Part shown: positions 13,018 through 20,048 of the stretch, piece after piece
Position numbering within the stretch: the first letter of the stretch is position 1
How the letters are laid out: every line of letters starts with the position of its first letter
From: an uncultured Slackia sp.
GTDB lineage: Bacteria > Actinomycetota > Coriobacteriia > Coriobacteriales > Eggerthellaceae
Direction of reading: 5' to 3'
Assembly (NCBI RefSeq): GCF_944321625.1
Contig: NZ_CALUMA010000021.1
Coordinates: 1 to 64,000, forward strand
DNA length: 64,000 bases
Position numbers and translations under genes: made by a program
Notes under the pieces: generated by a model
The model's input: only the letters and a program-made list of their open reading frames with translations
The model's database searches: none
What the model was told of the DNA's origin: nothing

Positions 13018-13190
13018 CTTAGCGCGAAGAGCGGCGGATGAACAGGGGCCGGATTAACGCGGGCGTGCACGGGCGTGTCTGCGGCGGATGCGTCAGATGC
13101 GTTTGAGCGTTTGACACACGGTCTTGGTTCGCAAGCGACGGGCAAAGGCGACCGCGCACCCGCTTGAGCGCATTGGAGATGGGAGCATCT

Positions 13191-14564
13191 ATGGCTCGAC
13201 TTTTTGGAACCGATGGCGTGCGCGGCATCGCCAACTCCGAGCTTACCTGCGAGATGGCGTATCGCCTGGGTCAGGCGGCAGCCACGTTCATGGGCAAGAC
13301 CATCGTGTTGGGCAAGGATACGCGCAAGAGCGGCGACATGCTTGAGGCGGCCGTGGTGGCCGGTATCACAAGCGGTGGCGGCGATGCGCTTCTGGCCGGC
13401 GTCATCCCCACACCTGCCGTGGCGCTGCTCGTGCGCGAGCTGCACGCCGATGGCGGCATCGTGATTTCCGCATCGCATAATCCGCCGGAGTACAACGGCA
13501 TCAAGTTCTTCGATGCGCAGGGCTATAAACTGCCCGACGCCGTGGAGGACGAGATCGAGGAATTCATCAACGCCGGTGGCCTTGAGGGTCAGGTGGCGCG
13601 CGCCAAAGAGGCGGGCGACGAGGATGCCTCCATGCCGGTGGGGCCCGAGGTGGGCGTTGCCATCGAGGTGGAAGACGCCTGCGAGATCTATATCGACCAC
13701 GCGGTGAAAACCGTCGAATCGCAGGGCATCGACTTCGAGGGCCTGCATGTGGCGCTTGATACGGGCCATGGCGCGTCTTCGCTGACGAGCGCCGAGGCGC
13801 TGCGTCGTCTGGGCGCCGAGGTCACGGTGATCAACGACGACTTCGACGGCACCGACATTAACGTGGGGTGCGGTTCCACCCATCTGGGGCCGCTGGCCGA
13901 TCTCATGAAGGAATGCGGCGCCGATGTGGGTATCGCGCACGACGGCGACGCTGACCGCGTGATGCTGATGGCTGCCGACGGCACCGAGATCGACGGCGAT
14001 ATCGTCGAGGCGGTGCTGGCGGTCGACCTCAAGCATCGCGATGCGCTGCCGGGCAATGTGGCCGTGTCTACCGTGATGACCAACCTGGGCTTCGTGCGCG
14101 CTATGGAGCGCGAGGGCATCGAGGTCATCCAGACCAAGGTGGGCGATCGCTACGTGCTGGAGGCCATGCGCGAAGGCGGCTACGCCGTGGGCGGCGAGCA
14201 GTCGGGTCATATGATTCTGCTGGAGTACAACTCCACGGGTGACGGCCTGGTGACGGCCTGCCAGTTCCTGGCGGCGGTGCGTCGCAGCGGCAAGCCGGTC
14301 GAGGAGGCCATCAAGGTGATGACCAAGTTCCCGCAGACGTTGATCAACGTGCGCGTGAAAGACAAGCATGCGCTTGAGGGCAACGGTTCCATCTGGGATT
14401 CCGTGCATGCTGCCGAGGACGAGATGGGCGATACGGGCCGCGTGCTGGTGCGCACGAGCGGCACCGAGCCCGTGGTGCGCGTAATGGTGGAGGCCGAGAC
14501 GCAGGAGGCCGCCGACGCCCATGCGAAGGCTATCGCCAAGGTGGTCGAAAGCGAGCTTTGCTAA
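13191..14564 (+). CDS. glmM: Phosphoglucosamine mutase
   Basis: GlmM converts glucosamine-6-phosphate to glucosamine-1-phosphate for UDP-GlcNAc and peptidoglycan synthesis; glmU, the next step, lies at 21407. The protein of 457 residues begins MARLFGTDGVRG, the family hallmark. The phosphorylated serine is Ser95 in ISASHNPPEYNG, the metal loop is DGDADR, and the sugar loop GEQSGH and the C-terminal phosphate-binding RTSGTEP are present. The ATG at 13191 follows GGGAG; the frame extends nine codons upstream. A long terminator stem follows that overlaps a regulatory palindrome for the next operon. Confidence 0.97.
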   Translation: MARLFGTDGVRGIANSELTCEMAYRLGQAAATFMGKTIVLGKDTRKSGDMLEAAVVAGITSGGGDALLAGVIPTPAVALLVRELHADGGIVISASHNPPEYNGIKFFDAQGYKLPDAVEDEIEEFINAGGLEGQVARAKEAGDEDASMPVGPEVGVAIEVEDACEIYIDHAVKTVESQGIDFEGLHVALDTGHGASSLTSAEALRRLGAEVTVINDDFDGTDINVGCGSTHLGPLADLMKECGADVGIAHDGDADRVMLMAADGTEIDGDIVEAVLAVDLKHRDALPGNVAVSTVMTNLGFVRAMEREGIEVIQTKVGDRYVLEAMREGGYAVGGEQSGHMILLEYNSTGDGLVTACQFLAAVRRSGKPVEEAIKVMTKFPQTLINVRVKDKHALEGNGSIWDSVHAAEDEMGDTGRVLVRTSGTEPVVRVMVEAETQEAADAHAKAIAKVVESELC

Positions 14565-14584
14565 GCCGTTTGTCGATAATTTAG

Positions 14585-14630
14585 TAAGGCGGTGTTACGA
14601 TTCTTGAATTCGTAACACCGCCTTATTATT
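14585..14630 (+). terminator. glmM terminator (overlaps operator 1)
   Basis: TAAGGCGGTGTTACGA (14585-14600) pairs with TCGTAACACCGCCTTA (14610-14625) followed by TTATT. The top of the stem is at the same time the first GTGTTAC palindrome. Confidence 0.65.
14592..14618. promoter_or_regulatory. Operator 1: GTGTTAC-N13-GTAACAC
   Basis: A perfect 27-bp dyad, identical in both half-sites (extended to GTGTTACGA-N9-TCGTAACAC) to operator 2. The half-site and 13-base spacing match the NikR site form I recall for delta-proteobacteria. It covers the -35 box of the importer promoter. Confidence 0.7.
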
Positions 14631-14632
14631 AT
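14604..14632 (+). promoter_or_regulatory. Promoter of the ABC importer operon
   Basis: TTGAAT (14604-14609), a 17-base spacer and TATTAT (14627-14632). The -35 lies in the centre of operator 1 and operator 2 starts two bases after the -10, a layout expected for repression. Confidence 0.7.
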
Positions 14633-14633
14633 G

Positions 14634-14660
14634 GTGTTACGAATTACGAATTCGTAACAC
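14634..14660. promoter_or_regulatory. Operator 2: GTGTTAC-N13-GTAACAC
   Basis: The second perfect 27-bp dyad, its centre exactly 42 bp (four helix turns) from operator 1. It covers the expected transcription start of the importer operon. Confidence 0.7.
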
Positions 14661-14745: not shown

Positions 14746-16419
14746 ATGAACCATTCTTCAAGAAGCATCAGCCGCCGCGGGTTCGCGAAGGTGGCAGCAA
14801 CGGGTGCAGCGGCGCTTTCGTTGGGCGGCATGCTTTCGGCATGTTCGGGCGGCTCGCAAGGGTCGAGCGGCGCGTCGGGTTCGACGGGCGCATCGGCGGG
14901 CACGGGTCCCAACGGCGAATCCCAGGTGATTATCACCATGACGACGAGCTCTGAGCCGGCGGCCGGATTCGACCCCCTCATTTCCTGGGGCTGTGGCGAG
15001 CATGTGCACGAGCCGCTCATTCAGTCCACGCTCATCACCACCGACACGAACCTCGCATTCGTGAACGATCTGGCCACGTCCTACAAAGGCTCCGAGGACG
15101 GCATGGAGGGGACCTTCACCATTCGCGACGACGTGAAATTCACCGATGGCGAGCCCCTGACCGCCGAGGACGTGGCTTTCACCATCAACGGCATCAAGGA
15201 TTCCGCTGCTTCCCAGGCTGACCTCACCATGGTGAACGAGGCCGTGGCGGTAGACGACACCACGGTGGTCATCAAGATGGCCAAGCCTTTCAATGCCCTG
15301 CTGTATACGCTCGCCGTGGTGGGCATCGTGCCTGCTCATGCCTATGACGAGAATTACGGCGCCAACCCCATCGGTTCGGGCCGTTACATGCTCGAGCAGT
15401 GGGACCGCGGCCAGCAGGTGATTCTGCGCGCCAATCCCGATTATTACGGCGAGGCACCTCTCATGGAGCGCGTGGTGGTGCTGTTCGTCGAAGAGGATGC
15501 ATCGCTTGCTGCGGCGCAGGCGGGCACGGCGGACGTTTCCTATACCTCTGCGACGCTCGCGAACGGTGTGCCCCAAGGCTATTCCCTGATGGATTGCGCT
15601 TCGGTCGACTCGCGCGGTATCTCGCTTCCGGTGGTCGAGCCGGGTGGCACGGTGGAGCACCAGGGTGCCGAATATCCTACGGGCAACGCCGTCACCTGCG
15701 ATCTGGCGCTGCGCCGCGCCATCAATTACGCGGTTGATCGCCAGGCGGTAGCCGACCATGTGCTCAACGGCTATGGGCGCGTCGCCTACAGCGTAAGCGA
15801 CGGAATGCCGTGGTCGAGCGACGATATGAAGTGCGAACGAGACGTGGCGGCGGCGCAGGCGTTGCTCTCGGATGCGGGCTGGGCCATGGGCGATGACGGC
15901 GTACTGGTCAAGGGCGACGTGCGTGCGGAATTCGACCTGTATTACGCTGCCGGCGATTCGGTGCGCCAGGCTATCGCCAACGAGTTTGCCAGCCAGATGG
16001 CTGAGTTGGGCATCAAGGCAAACGTGATCGGCGACAGCTGGGACGTGCTTTACCAGCATCAGTTCAGCGACCCCATTGTGTGGGGATGGGGCAGTAATTC
16101 TCCCATCGAGGTGTACAACCTCAACTATTCCGAGGGTTCGGGCAATTACGCCTGCTTGGACAACGCATCGGTGGATTACTATTTTGACGAGGCGCTCGCG
16201 CAGCCGCGCGTAGAGGACTCGTACGATTACTGGAAGAAGGCCCAGTGGGATGGAGAGGCGGGGTTTGCGCCGCAGGGCGATGCCTCGTGGGTGTGGTTCG
16301 TGAACGTAGATCATCTGTATTTCGTTCGCGATGGGCTCAAGGTGGCAGAGCAGAAGCCGCATCCGCACGGACATGGCTGGAGCTTGGCAAATAACGTGGA
16401 CAAGTGGAGCTGGAGCTAA
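14746..16419 (+). CDS. ABC importer substrate-binding lipoprotein, nickel/peptide type (SBP_bac_5)
   Basis: The 557-residue protein has a twin-arginine-like start (ISRRGFAKV) and a lipobox ending at Cys33 (MLSAC), followed by a Ser/Gly linker, so it is a lipoprotein facing outside. The rest is a full-length family 5 extracellular binding protein (DppA/NikA type): ESLI-like HVHEPLIQSTL, the FTIRDDVKFTDGEPLTAEDVAFT signature, and NPIGSGRYML. It ends with HPHGHGWSLANNVDKWSW, a His-rich tail that suits nickel or a nickel chelate. The start at 14746 follows GGGAGGG. It is the first gene of a four-gene importer operon behind two GTGTTAC palindromes. Nickel is an inference; a peptide substrate is possible. 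Confidence 0.85.
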   Translation: MNHSSRSISRRGFAKVAATGAAALSLGGMLSACSGGSQGSSGASGSTGASAGTGPNGESQVIITMTTSSEPAAGFDPLISWGCGEHVHEPLIQSTLITTDTNLAFVNDLATSYKGSEDGMEGTFTIRDDVKFTDGEPLTAEDVAFTINGIKDSAASQADLTMVNEAVAVDDTTVVIKMAKPFNALLYTLAVVGIVPAHAYDENYGANPIGSGRYMLEQWDRGQQVILRANPDYYGEAPLMERVVVLFVEEDASLAAAQAGTADVSYTSATLANGVPQGYSLMDCASVDSRGISLPVVEPGGTVEHQGAEYPTGNAVTCDLALRRAINYAVDRQAVADHVLNGYGRVAYSVSDGMPWSSDDMKCERDVAAAQALLSDAGWAMGDDGVLVKGDVRAEFDLYYAAGDSVRQAIANEFASQMAELGIKANVIGDSWDVLYQHQFSDPIVWGWGSNSPIEVYNLNYSEGSGNYACLDNASVDYYFDEALAQPRVEDSYDYWKKAQWDGEAGFAPQGDASWVWFVNVDHLYFVRDGLKVAEQKPHPHGHGWSLANNVDKWSWS

Positions 16420-16422
16420 TTC

Positions 16423-17469
16423 GTGCCCAAGTTCGTTCTCAGACAGATCGTTCGGTTCGTGCTGCTGATGCTGGCGGTCAGCTTGGTGGTGTTCGCCCTG
16501 GTGAGCGCGTCGCCTGTCGATCCCGTGCAGGCGAACGTGGGGCAGGCCGCCGTCATCGGCATGTCCGACGAGAAGCAGGCGCAGCTTGCCGCCTATTGGG
16601 GGGCGGATGCGCCGTTTTGGGAACGCTACTTGAATTGGCTGAGTGCGTTCGTTCAGGGTGACATGGGTGAATCGCTGCGCTTCAATGCGCGGGTGGCCGA
16701 TGTCATAGCCACCCGCGCTCTCAACTCACTTGCGCTCATGGCAATCGCGTGGGTTGCGAGCGGCGTGCTGGGACTTGCCCTGGGCATCGTGGCGGGCGCG
16801 TTTCGTGGCCGCTGGCCCGACAAACTGGTAAAAGGATATTGCTACCTACTCGCTTCGACGCCCACGTTTTGGCTGGGCTTGGTGGCGCTTATGGTGTTCT
16901 CGGTATGGCTGGGATGGTTCCCTTTGGGATTTTCGGCCCCGGTTGGCGTGGCTGCGTCCGAGGTGACGCTTGCGGATGCGGCCTACCACATCGTGCTGCC
17001 CGCCCTTGTGCTCTCGCTTTCAGGTGTGGCGAACATCGCACTCCATACGCGCGAGAAACTGGTAGACGTTTTAGAGTCCGACTATGTTCGGTTCGCCCGC
17101 GCGCGCGGCGAAAAGCTTGGCGTTATCGTGCGACGTCATGGGCTGCGCAACCTGCTGCTGCCGGCGATAACGCTCCAATTCGCATCCTTGTCTGAGATTT
17201 TCGGCGGATCGGTGCTGGTGGAGCAGGTCTTCTCATATCCGGGGCTGGGGCAGGCCGCCATCACGGCGGGACTCGGCGGCGACGCGGCGCTTTTGGCGGG
17301 CATCGCGGTGGTTTCTGCTGCGTTGGTGTTCGGCGGCAACCTGATCGCCAATCTGCTCTACGGCGCGGTGGACCCGCGTATGCGCGTCGCGTTCCGCAAG
17401 GATGCTTCCGACGGGCGCGGTAGCCATGGGAATGCCTCCGATGCGAAGGAGGCCGCCCATGTTGGCTAG
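16423..17469 (+). CDS. ABC importer permease, DppB/NikB type
   Basis: The 348-residue inner-membrane permease starts with GTG three bases after the binding-protein stop. It has the typical single N-terminal helix with VSASPVDPV, then five helices in the BPD_transp_1 domain. The EAA-type loop DYVRFARARGEKLGVIVRRHGLRN contacts the ATPase, and GGSVLVEQVFSYPGLG is the family motif near the C-terminus. Its last four codons overlap the start of the next permease, indicating translational coupling. The C-terminal tail (about 25 residues, Asp/Gly/His/Ala rich) looks non-conserved. Confidence 0.88.
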   Translation: MPKFVLRQIVRFVLLMLAVSLVVFALVSASPVDPVQANVGQAAVIGMSDEKQAQLAAYWGADAPFWERYLNWLSAFVQGDMGESLRFNARVADVIATRALNSLALMAIAWVASGVLGLALGIVAGAFRGRWPDKLVKGYCYLLASTPTFWLGLVALMVFSVWLGWFPLGFSAPVGVAASEVTLADAAYHIVLPALVLSLSGVANIALHTREKLVDVLESDYVRFARARGEKLGVIVRRHGLRNLLLPAITLQFASLSEIFGGSVLVEQVFSYPGLGQAAITAGLGGDAALLAGIAVVSAALVFGGNLIANLLYGAVDPRMRVAFRKDASDGRGSHGNASDAKEAAHVG

Positions 17470-18340
17470 CTGGCAGGAGGGGTATGCCACCCAGGGCGCC
17501 GTGCTGCATCTTCCTCGGTCATCGGGCTCTAACCGCCTGGTCGCTCTTGCGGCTTGTATCGGGGCGGCGCTGGCGCTGGTCGCCGTCGTGATCGCGGGCA
17601 TCGCGCTGACTCCCGTCGCGTCGGCGGTGGATTTCGAGGCGAAGAACCTCGCACCCTGCTTGGCGCATCCGTTCGGCACCGATTGGATGGGGCGCGACAT
17701 GCTGGCGCGCACGCTGGCCGGCCTTTCCACAAGCGTGCTTTTGGGCGTTGCCGCCGCCGTTGTTTCGTCGGTCATTGCCGTGGTGCTGGGTGCGGCGGCC
17801 GCGTTGGGCGGTCCCAAGGTCGATGCCGTGGTCAATTGGATGATCGATCTCATGCTGGGCATTCCCCATATCGTACTGCTGGTGCTTATTTCCTATGCGC
17901 TGGGCAAGGGATTTTGGGGCGTGGCCGTGGGCATCGCCATAACGCACTGGCCAAGCCTTGCCCGCGTGGTGCGTGCCGAGATTCTGCAGTGCCGCCAGGC
18001 GCCCTATATCCAGGCGGCGCGCGCGCTGGGCAAAAGCCGCGTGAGCATCGCCGTGCGTCATATGATTCCGTTCGTATTTCCCCAGTACCTGGTAGGGCTC
18101 ATCCTCATGTTTCCGCATGCGATTTTGCATGAGGCGTCCATCACGTTTTTGGGGTTCGGCTTGCCGCCCGAGCAGCCCGCTATCGGCGTGATTCTCAGCG
18201 AGTCGATGACATATCTTTCGGCCGGCATGTGGTGGCTCGCGGTGTTTCCGGGGCTGGCGCTTATCGCGGTGGTGCTGGTGTTCGACATCGCGGGTTCGAG
18301 CCTTCGGGCGCTCATCGATCCGCATAGGTCGCAGGAATAG
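17459..18340 (+). CDS. ABC importer permease, DppC/NikC type
   Basis: The second permease, 293 residues, has an N-terminal helix at about 20-45, then HPFGTDWMGRDMLART (the DppC hallmark) and a BPD_transp_1 domain. The coupling loop is APYIQAARALGKSRVSIAVRHMIP and the end motif is EASITFLGFGLPPEQPAIG. I chose the ATG at 17459 because AAGGAGG lies six bases upstream, inside the previous gene; the open frame extends 19 codons further. The 11-base overlap with the first permease is typical of this operon type. Confidence 0.88.
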   Translation: MLASWQEGYATQGAVLHLPRSSGSNRLVALAACIGAALALVAVVIAGIALTPVASAVDFEAKNLAPCLAHPFGTDWMGRDMLARTLAGLSTSVLLGVAAAVVSSVIAVVLGAAAALGGPKVDAVVNWMIDLMLGIPHIVLLVLISYALGKGFWGVAVGIAITHWPSLARVVRAEILQCRQAPYIQAARALGKSRVSIAVRHMIPFVFPQYLVGLILMFPHAILHEASITFLGFGLPPEQPAIGVILSESMTYLSAGMWWLAVFPGLALIAVVLVFDIAGSSLRALIDPHRSQE

Positions 18341-18350
18341 AGGAGGGGAT

Positions 18351-20048
18351 ATGCAGGAGAAGCATGACGATATTTCCTCCCGTCCGGCCATGGGGGAGCT
18401 GACGGTGCAAGGGGCGAAGCCGGCCGAGCACGATTGCCGCGAGGCCGCGCTCAATCACGAGCGCTTGATCCACGCTTCGGCGGAATTCCACCATCATCAC
18501 AGCCATGCGTCCGCTTCGCATCATGCTGGCGGGCACCATTTGCTGCAGGTGGAAAACCTGAGCATGGGTTTTTCGATGTACGACCCCGACGAGCCGCGTT
18601 TCTTCCGCGCCAAAAAACGTCTTGTGCCTGCCATTAAAGACCTGAGCGTGTCGGTGCATGCGGGCGAGGTGATGGCGGTTGTGGGTGCCTCCGGGTCGGG
18701 CAAGACGCTTCTTGCCGATGCGATATTCGCCCTGTTCGAGCCCAATGCCGAGGCGCGAGGCACCGTGTGGTTCGATGGAGAACACTGCGGTGCGGATAGT
18801 TTGGCGCGCCTGCGTGGGCGCGGCATCTCGCTTGTGCCGCAGAGCGTGTCGCATCTCGACCCGCTCATGAAGGTGGGCAAGCAGGTGCGGGGCGTGGCGC
18901 GTGACGCCGCCGATGCGAAAAGGCGCGAGCGGAAACAGCGCGAGCTGTTCGAGCGCTACGGCCTTGCGCCCGAAGTGGAAGAGATGTATCCCTTCGAGCT
19001 TTCAGGCGGCATGGCGCGGCGTGTGCTTCTGTGCAGCGCCCTCATCGATGAGCCGCGCCTGATAGTGGCGGATGAGCCGACGCCTGGCCTTGACCTCGAC
19101 CTGGCGGTAAAAGCGTTGGATGACCTGCGGGCGTTCGCCAATGAGGGCGGCGGCGTGCTGCTTATCACGCACGATATCGAGCTCGCCTTGCGCGTGTCCG
19201 ACCGCATCGCCGTGTTCAAGGACGGCACGGTGGTGGAGGAGACGTCGGTGGCTGCGTTCGAGTCGCCCGAGACGCTGCGACACCCGTTTTCGCGGGAGCT
19301 TTGGCATGCGGTGTTTGGAAGCGAAGCGAATTCGGGCTCGGCAAAGCCGGAGAGGCGTTTCGATGTGCGGGGGCGTACGGGCGAGAAGGACCGCGTAAAC
19401 GACAAAGATGCTCTGCGCCCTGACCGCCAAGGGTCGAGAAACGAACCGGATCAATGCCTGGAAGCGTGTGACATCTCGTTCGCCTATCCGGGCGGACGGC
19501 AGTTGTTCAACGGTCTTGAGCTTCGCGTCGAGCCGGGGGAACGTGTGGCGCTCACCGCGCCGAGCGGATTCGGCAAAACCACACTGTGTCGCATCCTTGC
19601 TGGGTATCTTGTGCCCGCTGGGGGCAGCGTAACGGTTGACGGCGAGCCGCTTCCCAACCGAGGGGCGCTTCCTGTCCAGCTTATCGGTCAGCATCCGGAA
19701 ACCATGGTCGACCCGCGCATGCGCATGCGAGCGATTATGGAGGAGGCGGGCTTTGTGAGCGATGAAATCGTGCAGGGGCTGGGCATCCGCGAGGCGTGGA
19801 TGCGCCGCCATCCGCATGAGCTTTCCGGCGGTGAGCTGCAGCGTTTCTGCATCGCCCGCGCGCTGGCCGCCAATCCGCGATACCTGATTTGCGACGAGAC
19901 CACGGCGATGTTCGACGCGGTGGCGCAGGCGGAAATATGGCGTTATCTCGTGGACTATACGCAGCGGCATGGCATAGGACTTGTGCTGGTGAGCCATTCG
20001 CCGTCGCTCGTGGAACGCGTGGCGACGCGTGTGGTGAAACTGGATTAG
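18351..20048 (+). CDS. Fused double ATPase of the importer with His-rich N-terminus (NikD-NikE type)
   Basis: The 565-residue protein joins the two ATPases that are usually separate. ABC domain 1 has Walker A GASGSGKT (112-119), signature LSGGMARR, Walker B IVADEPTPGLD and the switch His (LLITHD). Domain 2 has Walker A APSGFGKTT (about 403-411), signature LSGGELQRF, ICDETTAMFD and VLVSHSP. In domain 2 the Asp of Walker B is followed by Glu-Thr, still with Glu in place. Residues 41-63 hold ten histidines (HHHHSH, HH, GHH) ahead of domain 1, as in metal storage or metal-sensing tails, which supports a metal substrate. It starts ten bases after the permease stop, with GAGGGG as the ribosome binding site. 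Confidence 0.88.
   Translation: MQEKHDDISSRPAMGELTVQGAKPAEHDCREAALNHERLIHASAEFHHHHSHASASHHAGGHHLLQVENLSMGFSMYDPDEPRFFRAKKRLVPAIKDLSVSVHAGEVMAVVGASGSGKTLLADAIFALFEPNAEARGTVWFDGEHCGADSLARLRGRGISLVPQSVSHLDPLMKVGKQVRGVARDAADAKRRERKQRELFERYGLAPEVEEMYPFELSGGMARRVLLCSALIDEPRLIVADEPTPGLDLDLAVKALDDLRAFANEGGGVLLITHDIELALRVSDRIAVFKDGTVVEETSVAAFESPETLRHPFSRELWHAVFGSEANSGSAKPERRFDVRGRTGEKDRVNDKDALRPDRQGSRNEPDQCLEACDISFAYPGGRQLFNGLELRVEPGERVALTAPSGFGKTTLCRILAGYLVPAGGSVTVDGEPLPNRGALPVQLIGQHPETMVDPRMRMRAIMEEAGFVSDEIVQGLGIREAWMRRHPHELSGGELQRFCIARALAANPRYLICDETTAMFDAVAQAEIWRYLVDYTQRHGIGLVLVSHSPSLVERVATRVVKLD

Follow-up and report, generated by a model that had tools for sequence, protein, structure and literature searches.

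Predicted NikR operators on the promoter of a putative nickel importer operon in Slackia and related gut actinobacteria

The 64,000-nucleotide stretch of an uncultured Slackia sp. genome analysed here (contig NZ_CALUMA010000021.1, hereafter called the window) carries a pair of GTGTTAC-N13-GTAACAC palindromes on the promoter of an ABC importer operon. On the basis of sequence comparisons, we consider it very likely that the two palindromes are operators through which NikR would repress nickel uptake. The comparisons support a model in which the pair would belong to an established type of switch, as a variant distinguished by a conserved tandem arrangement and by swaps of half-site orientation. 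The relevant features of the window are as follows.

13164 to 14564, + strand: glmM-like phosphohexosamine mutase, the upstream neighbour, outside the nickel unit (open reading frame, kept in two related Slackia loci)
14582 to 14628, + strand: hairpin predicted by RNA folding, made of operator 1 plus a 7-bp flanking extension (TAAGGCG/CGCCTTA); possible glmM terminator
14592 to 14618, + strand: predicted NikR operator 1 (upstream), GTGTTACGATTCTTGAATTCGTAACAC; exact consensus match that covers the -35 and belongs to a pair kept in relatives
14604 to 14609, + strand: -35-like hexamer TTGAAT within operator 1 (consensus scan)
14627 to 14632, + strand: -10-like hexamer TATTAT, ending one base 5' of operator 2 (consensus scan); a -10-like element is at the same place in most relatives
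14634 to 14660, + strand: predicted NikR operator 2 (main), GTGTTACGAATTACGAATTCGTAACAC; exact consensus match that adjoins the -10 and spans the likely transcription start
14746 to 16419, + strand: substrate-binding lipoprotein, SBP_bac_5, YntA/NikA-like nickel-binding type, with a twin-arginine and lipobox signal
16423 to 17469, + strand: ABC permease, NikB/Opp type (family profile)
17402 to 18340, + strand: ABC permease, NikC/Opp type, with an uncertain start codon (the open reading frame overlaps the preceding one)
18351 to 20048, + strand: fused double ABC ATPase, NikDE-like, with a histidine-rich N-terminal extension

The first-pass annotation described two perfect, identical palindromes. 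A scan of the whole window returns exact matches at 14592-14618 and 14634-14660, for which the chance expectation is 0.00 (100 shuffles). The half-sites are indeed the same in both copies, but the 13-bp spacers differ, and site 2 is a perfect 12-bp inverted repeat with a 3-nt centre. Apart from these two importer-promoter sites, the 2.4-Mb genome holds no third exact match. When up to three mismatches are allowed across the whole genome, no other convincing site emerges (23 places for the motif versus 98 for a reversed control). A search of this genome and the genus for other half-site orientations with N13 gave one isolated, chance-like match beyond the known sites, in a genome (G007) that lacks nikR.

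The sole match of a promoter consensus scan is a sigma-70-like promoter, TTGAAT-17 bp-TATTAT. Site 1 contains its -35 element, and its -10 element ends one base before site 2, just as had been proposed, and the first importer gene starts at 14746, 85 bases 3' of site 2.

The genes that follow the sites encode a transporter of the nickel/peptide class, made up of a substrate-binding protein (SBP), a fused double ATPase and two permeases, in agreement with the earlier reading of an ABC importer. This composition (SBP_bac_5, two BPD permeases and ATPases) is that of Nik/Ynt/Opp nickel/peptide importers. The best named relative of the gene downstream of the sites is in Slackia equolifaciens (89% protein identity), which places the genome in Slackia and agrees with the Eggerthellaceae origin presumed in the first-pass annotation. 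The closest solved relatives of the SBP are 3ry3 and YpYntA, a nickel-binding protein from Yersinia (PDB 4ofl), the latter matching over nearly its full length with an E value of 2.3e-95. The SBP scores under the equivalog cut-offs both for NikA (138 versus 393 bits, TIGR02294) and for Opp5A (110 versus 600 bits, NF045468), and so the assignment of nickel as the probable substrate draws on the similarity to YntA and on context; it is well supported but not proven. The genome also carries a [NiFe] hydrogenase (small subunit, large subunit and a cytochrome b-like gene) and therefore needs nickel.

The histidine-rich N-terminal extension of the fused ATPase (residues about 40-64, AEFHHHHSHASASHHAGGHHLL) is kept in most Coriobacteriia homologues as HHHH[ST]HA...H..GHHLL. 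Possibly, this segment is a cytosolic tail that holds nickel.

Exactly one nikR gene is present in the genome (G000:C3:29027-29257, PF08753, E 2.9e-26), so that the objection foreseen earlier, a genome devoid of nikR, does not apply. The encoded protein of 170 residues scores 156 bits against an NCBI NikR equivalog cut-off of 105 bits, and its alignment with solved NikRs, including those of E. coli and H. pylori, spans its length. It combines a ribbon-helix-helix N-terminus with an ACT-like nickel domain, and the alignment to solved NikRs indicates that all four nickel ligands of the His/His-x-His/Cys set are kept (QH...LHVH.....C). The gene is on another contig than the importer operon and is unlinked to it; no motif copy that might point to autoregulation was found near nikR in this genome. 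The DNA-contact strand reads RFSVT, and nearly all other Coriobacteriia NikRs examined, Collinsella included, have RFSVA or RFSIA. The contact residues of Geobacter uraniireducens NikR are Arg-Gly-Ser, from which the Arg-Ser-Ala/Thr set found here, and the R-F-S-V-T strand of Slackia in particular, differs, a point against the assignment. The Geobacter uraniireducens protein uses the same half-site and is reported to bind co-operatively as tetramers.

The proposed link between the palindromes and this protein builds on a published delta-proteobacterial NikR consensus, GTGTTAC-[N13/14]-GTAACAC, which is distinct from the enterobacterial signal, GTATGAT-[N13/14]-ATCATAC (PMC545781). The first-pass annotation had likened the half-site and spacing to delta-proteobacterial NikR sites, and this proves correct because both Slackia sites are perfect matches to the consensus.

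Evidence that the sites are tied to the importer comes from a class-wide set of 78 orthologous importer loci of Coriobacteriia, in which 510 bp per promoter were searched with at most one mismatch. A NikR-type site in any orientation is present in 73 of the 78 promoters, where its absence from orthologous loci had been named as a result that would count against the assignment. The controls, 1427 random chunks of equal size and 878 kb of flanking DNA from the same loci, gave no hits (0/1427 chunks and 0 sites outside the promoters). The site is inverted in 55 promoters, whereas in 18 the same two 7-mers stand 13-14 bp apart in another orientation (13 direct, 2 direct on the other strand and 3 everted). 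Three of the five remaining promoters have inverted sites with two mismatches, and another (L077) has a degraded direct repeat, as judged by eye. Only the promoter of L089 has no trace of a site. Its genome, a MAG labelled Propionibacterium, is one of only two without nikR among 48; possibly the locus was passed from Coriobacteriia to another lineage, or the bin carries a wrong label.

Within the genus, the motif is found in 10 of 12 genomes. The two that lack it have no importer orthologue, and nikR too is missing from one of these. A further genome, G004, likewise has no importer but carries the motif upstream of a fused gene of the nik(MN) type. At the level of the family Eggerthellaceae, 96 of 138 genomes carry the motif and 132 of 138 carry nikR. 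The downstream genes at most readable family loci are orthologues of the Slackia importer, and other sites precede nik(MN) followed by a CbiQ-like gene and, at one locus, what is probably a methyltransferase gene accompanied by a Nik-type permease. No obvious metal gene is beside the site at two loci (L115, L121). The earlier worry that the motif might stand widely before unrelated genes is thus not borne out, since sites in both genus and family mostly precede nickel or metal uptake genes. Moreover, the site pair is retained in species whose importer has different upstream neighbours, which assigns the sites to the importer rather than to glmM.

Two further associations among the family loci involve other gene classes. 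In L132, a one-mismatch NikR-type site at 1501 is followed by a FecCD/BtuC-type permease and an ATPase, which suggests that an uptake system for a nickel complex or of the cobalamin type might be under NikR control. Three family genomes (L122, L135 and L137) have a NikR-type site (1501 or its complement) followed first by a gene for a small membrane protein, MACF[IL]VGG.EA..., that matches no known family, and then by another small membrane gene. The first of these proteins is a candidate for a new member of the nickel regulon.

Two inverted sites are present in 37 of the class-wide promoters. Conservation is higher at the downstream site, which usually has a -10-like element (often TGCTATAGT) directly 5' of it, while the first bases of the upstream site are usually degenerate. 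This pattern points to site 2 as the probable main operator and to site 1 as an auxiliary one, and the two are perhaps bound co-operatively. The start-to-start distance of 42 bp was originally equated with four helix turns. This spacing is found here and in S. equolifaciens, but pairs in other relatives are 38-46, 50-54 or 63 bp apart; in a group with 53 bp the upstream site is farther out, whereas in this window it lies over the -35. Helical phasing across the set is only suggestive (R = 0.51 for 37 non-independent pairs and 0.41 for 12 distinct spacings, with 39 bp common). We do not claim a fixed four-turn phasing, given the lack of clean helical phasing and the varied spacing in relatives.

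The half-sites themselves appear to change direction. In Collinsella and its relatives the left 7-mer is reversed, giving GTAACAC-GAAT...ATTC-GTAACAC, and the inward flanks stay in nearly all cases. In this group, direct repeats of the form GTAACAC-N13/14-GTAACAC are found at the orthologous importer in L052, L059, L062, L083, L088, L090, L092, L095, L096, L102, L105, L108 and L109. NikR contacts DNA with a pair of symmetric ribbon-helix-helix dimers. Because the outer GT..AC is common to the 7-mer and its reverse complement, both orientations could be legible to each dimer, and the use of the same GTGTTAC 7-mer at 13-14 bp, usually with the GAAT/ATTC flank, would fit a dimer that reads its half-site either way. 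We lean slightly towards a model in which the half-sites of Coriobacteriia NikR can be flipped in place (inverted, direct or everted) and the tandem operators of Eggerthellaceae are bound by two tetramers, probably co-operatively, which would sharpen the response to nickel. The everted form has already been seen in Desulfotalea (PMC545781); no earlier report of the direct-repeat form was found in the literature searched.

Site 1 can also be read as RNA. The hairpin at 14582-14628 begins 17 nt after the glmM stop codon (site 1 itself begins 27 nt after it) and has a 19-bp stem of -30.8 kcal/mol (z = -8.4), of which site 1 forms the upper part. The RNA of site 2 likewise folds stably. These folds could mean that the palindromes act mainly as RNA hairpins, one a terminator and the other a 5' leader structure, and that their likeness to NikR sites is coincidental. 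We regard this as extremely improbable. The complementary extension of the stem is 7 bp here but 0-3 bp in 75 other instances, whereas the 7-mers are kept; direct-repeat versions in relatives cannot form the hairpin at all; and in S. equolifaciens (L006), glmM is followed by a classic terminator of its own (GAGTCGG...CCGACTCTTTTATTT). A terminator-only reading of the sites is rejected because the stem flanks are unconserved and the direct-repeat relatives are unable to fold.

A more modest role for the hairpin would add to the NikR assignment rather than replace it. The earlier description of site 1 as the top of the glmM terminator stem is right as far as the fold in this genome goes; the stem is confined to this genome and was not called by a terminator scan, whose loop limit of 8 nt is exceeded by the predicted loop of 9 nt. 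The tail after the stem (UUAUUAUUAU) is also an imperfect U-tract. On the other side, the glmM stop lies close by, the fold is strong, the 7-bp extension is unique to this genome, and the region that holds the separate terminator of S. equolifaciens is missing here. We slightly favour a double job for site 1 in this genome, as an operator for NikR in the DNA and as the terminator of glmM in the transcript, by which the nickel operon would be insulated from read-through. The feature is seen in one genome only and thus draws no support from conservation, and the recruitment of a terminator into site 1 is best described as plausible.

The other alternative is that the sites serve a different regulator, some other metal sensor or an as yet uncharacterised protein, whose recognition sequence coincides with that of NikR. 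The location of nikR away from the importer operon would be compatible with this idea, as would the few genomes that bear the motif with no nikR detected (G044, G053 and the genome of L064), at least two of which are incomplete or MAG assemblies. Nevertheless, we consider another regulator very improbable: the sites are identical to the published NikR consensus (PMC545781), the family almost always carries nikR, the one promoter devoid of any site (L089) is in a genome that lacks the gene, and the targets are nickel or metal uptake genes.

If NikR is indeed the regulator, its nickel-bound tetramers would occupy site 2 in the -10/+1 region and site 1 at the -35 under nickel sufficiency and would keep RNA polymerase off the promoter of the YntA/Nik-type importer. 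When nickel is scarce, NikR would leave, and the importer would be made to supply nickel for the [NiFe] hydrogenase. What the sequences show directly are the sites with their conservation, the presence of NikR, the type of target and the agreement with the consensus; binding, nickel dependence, repression, tetramer-tetramer co-operation and termination at site 1 are deduced from these comparisons.

The system resembles the NikR-nikABCDE system of E. coli in having a NikR family regulator, a nickel ABC importer of the same superfamily and an operator over the promoter. E. coli has one NikR operator, and the Slackia SBP is unlike that of E. coli in being YntA-like, not NikA-like. The SBP is a full-length homologue of Yersinia YntA (PDB 4ofl) from a different phylum, and the Slackia operon differs from the Yersinia system in its two fused ATPases with a histidine-rich N-terminus. 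The E. coli half-site is also different, GTATGAT-N13/14-ATCATAC (PMC545781). The operators are more like those of delta-proteobacteria (Geobacter and Desulfovibrio; PMC545781, Table 4), with 7-bp half-sites, a 13/14-bp spacer and nickel uptake genes downstream, and fused nik(MN) genes are among the NikR targets in Geobacter as well (PMC545781). Unlike those operators, the Slackia sites are in an actinobacterial host, control a YntA/Nik-type peptide/nickel ABC importer if the assignment is correct, and form a conserved two-site arrangement on one promoter. The direct-repeat orientation of Collinsella is absent from Table 4 of PMC545781, whereas the everted one (Desulfotalea) is present there.

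No relevant NikR study in these gut actinobacteria was found in the literature searched. With the predicted operators, an experimentally tractable switch for nickel would be extended to a large actinobacterial group of the human gut that includes Eggerthella, Gordonibacter, Slackia and Collinsella. Together they form a natural operator series, with one or two sites, spacers of 13 or 14 bp and inverted, direct or everted half-sites, against an almost constant set of NikR contact residues. Thus, the tolerance of a symmetric ribbon-helix-helix tetramer for the orientation and spacing of its half-sites becomes directly testable.
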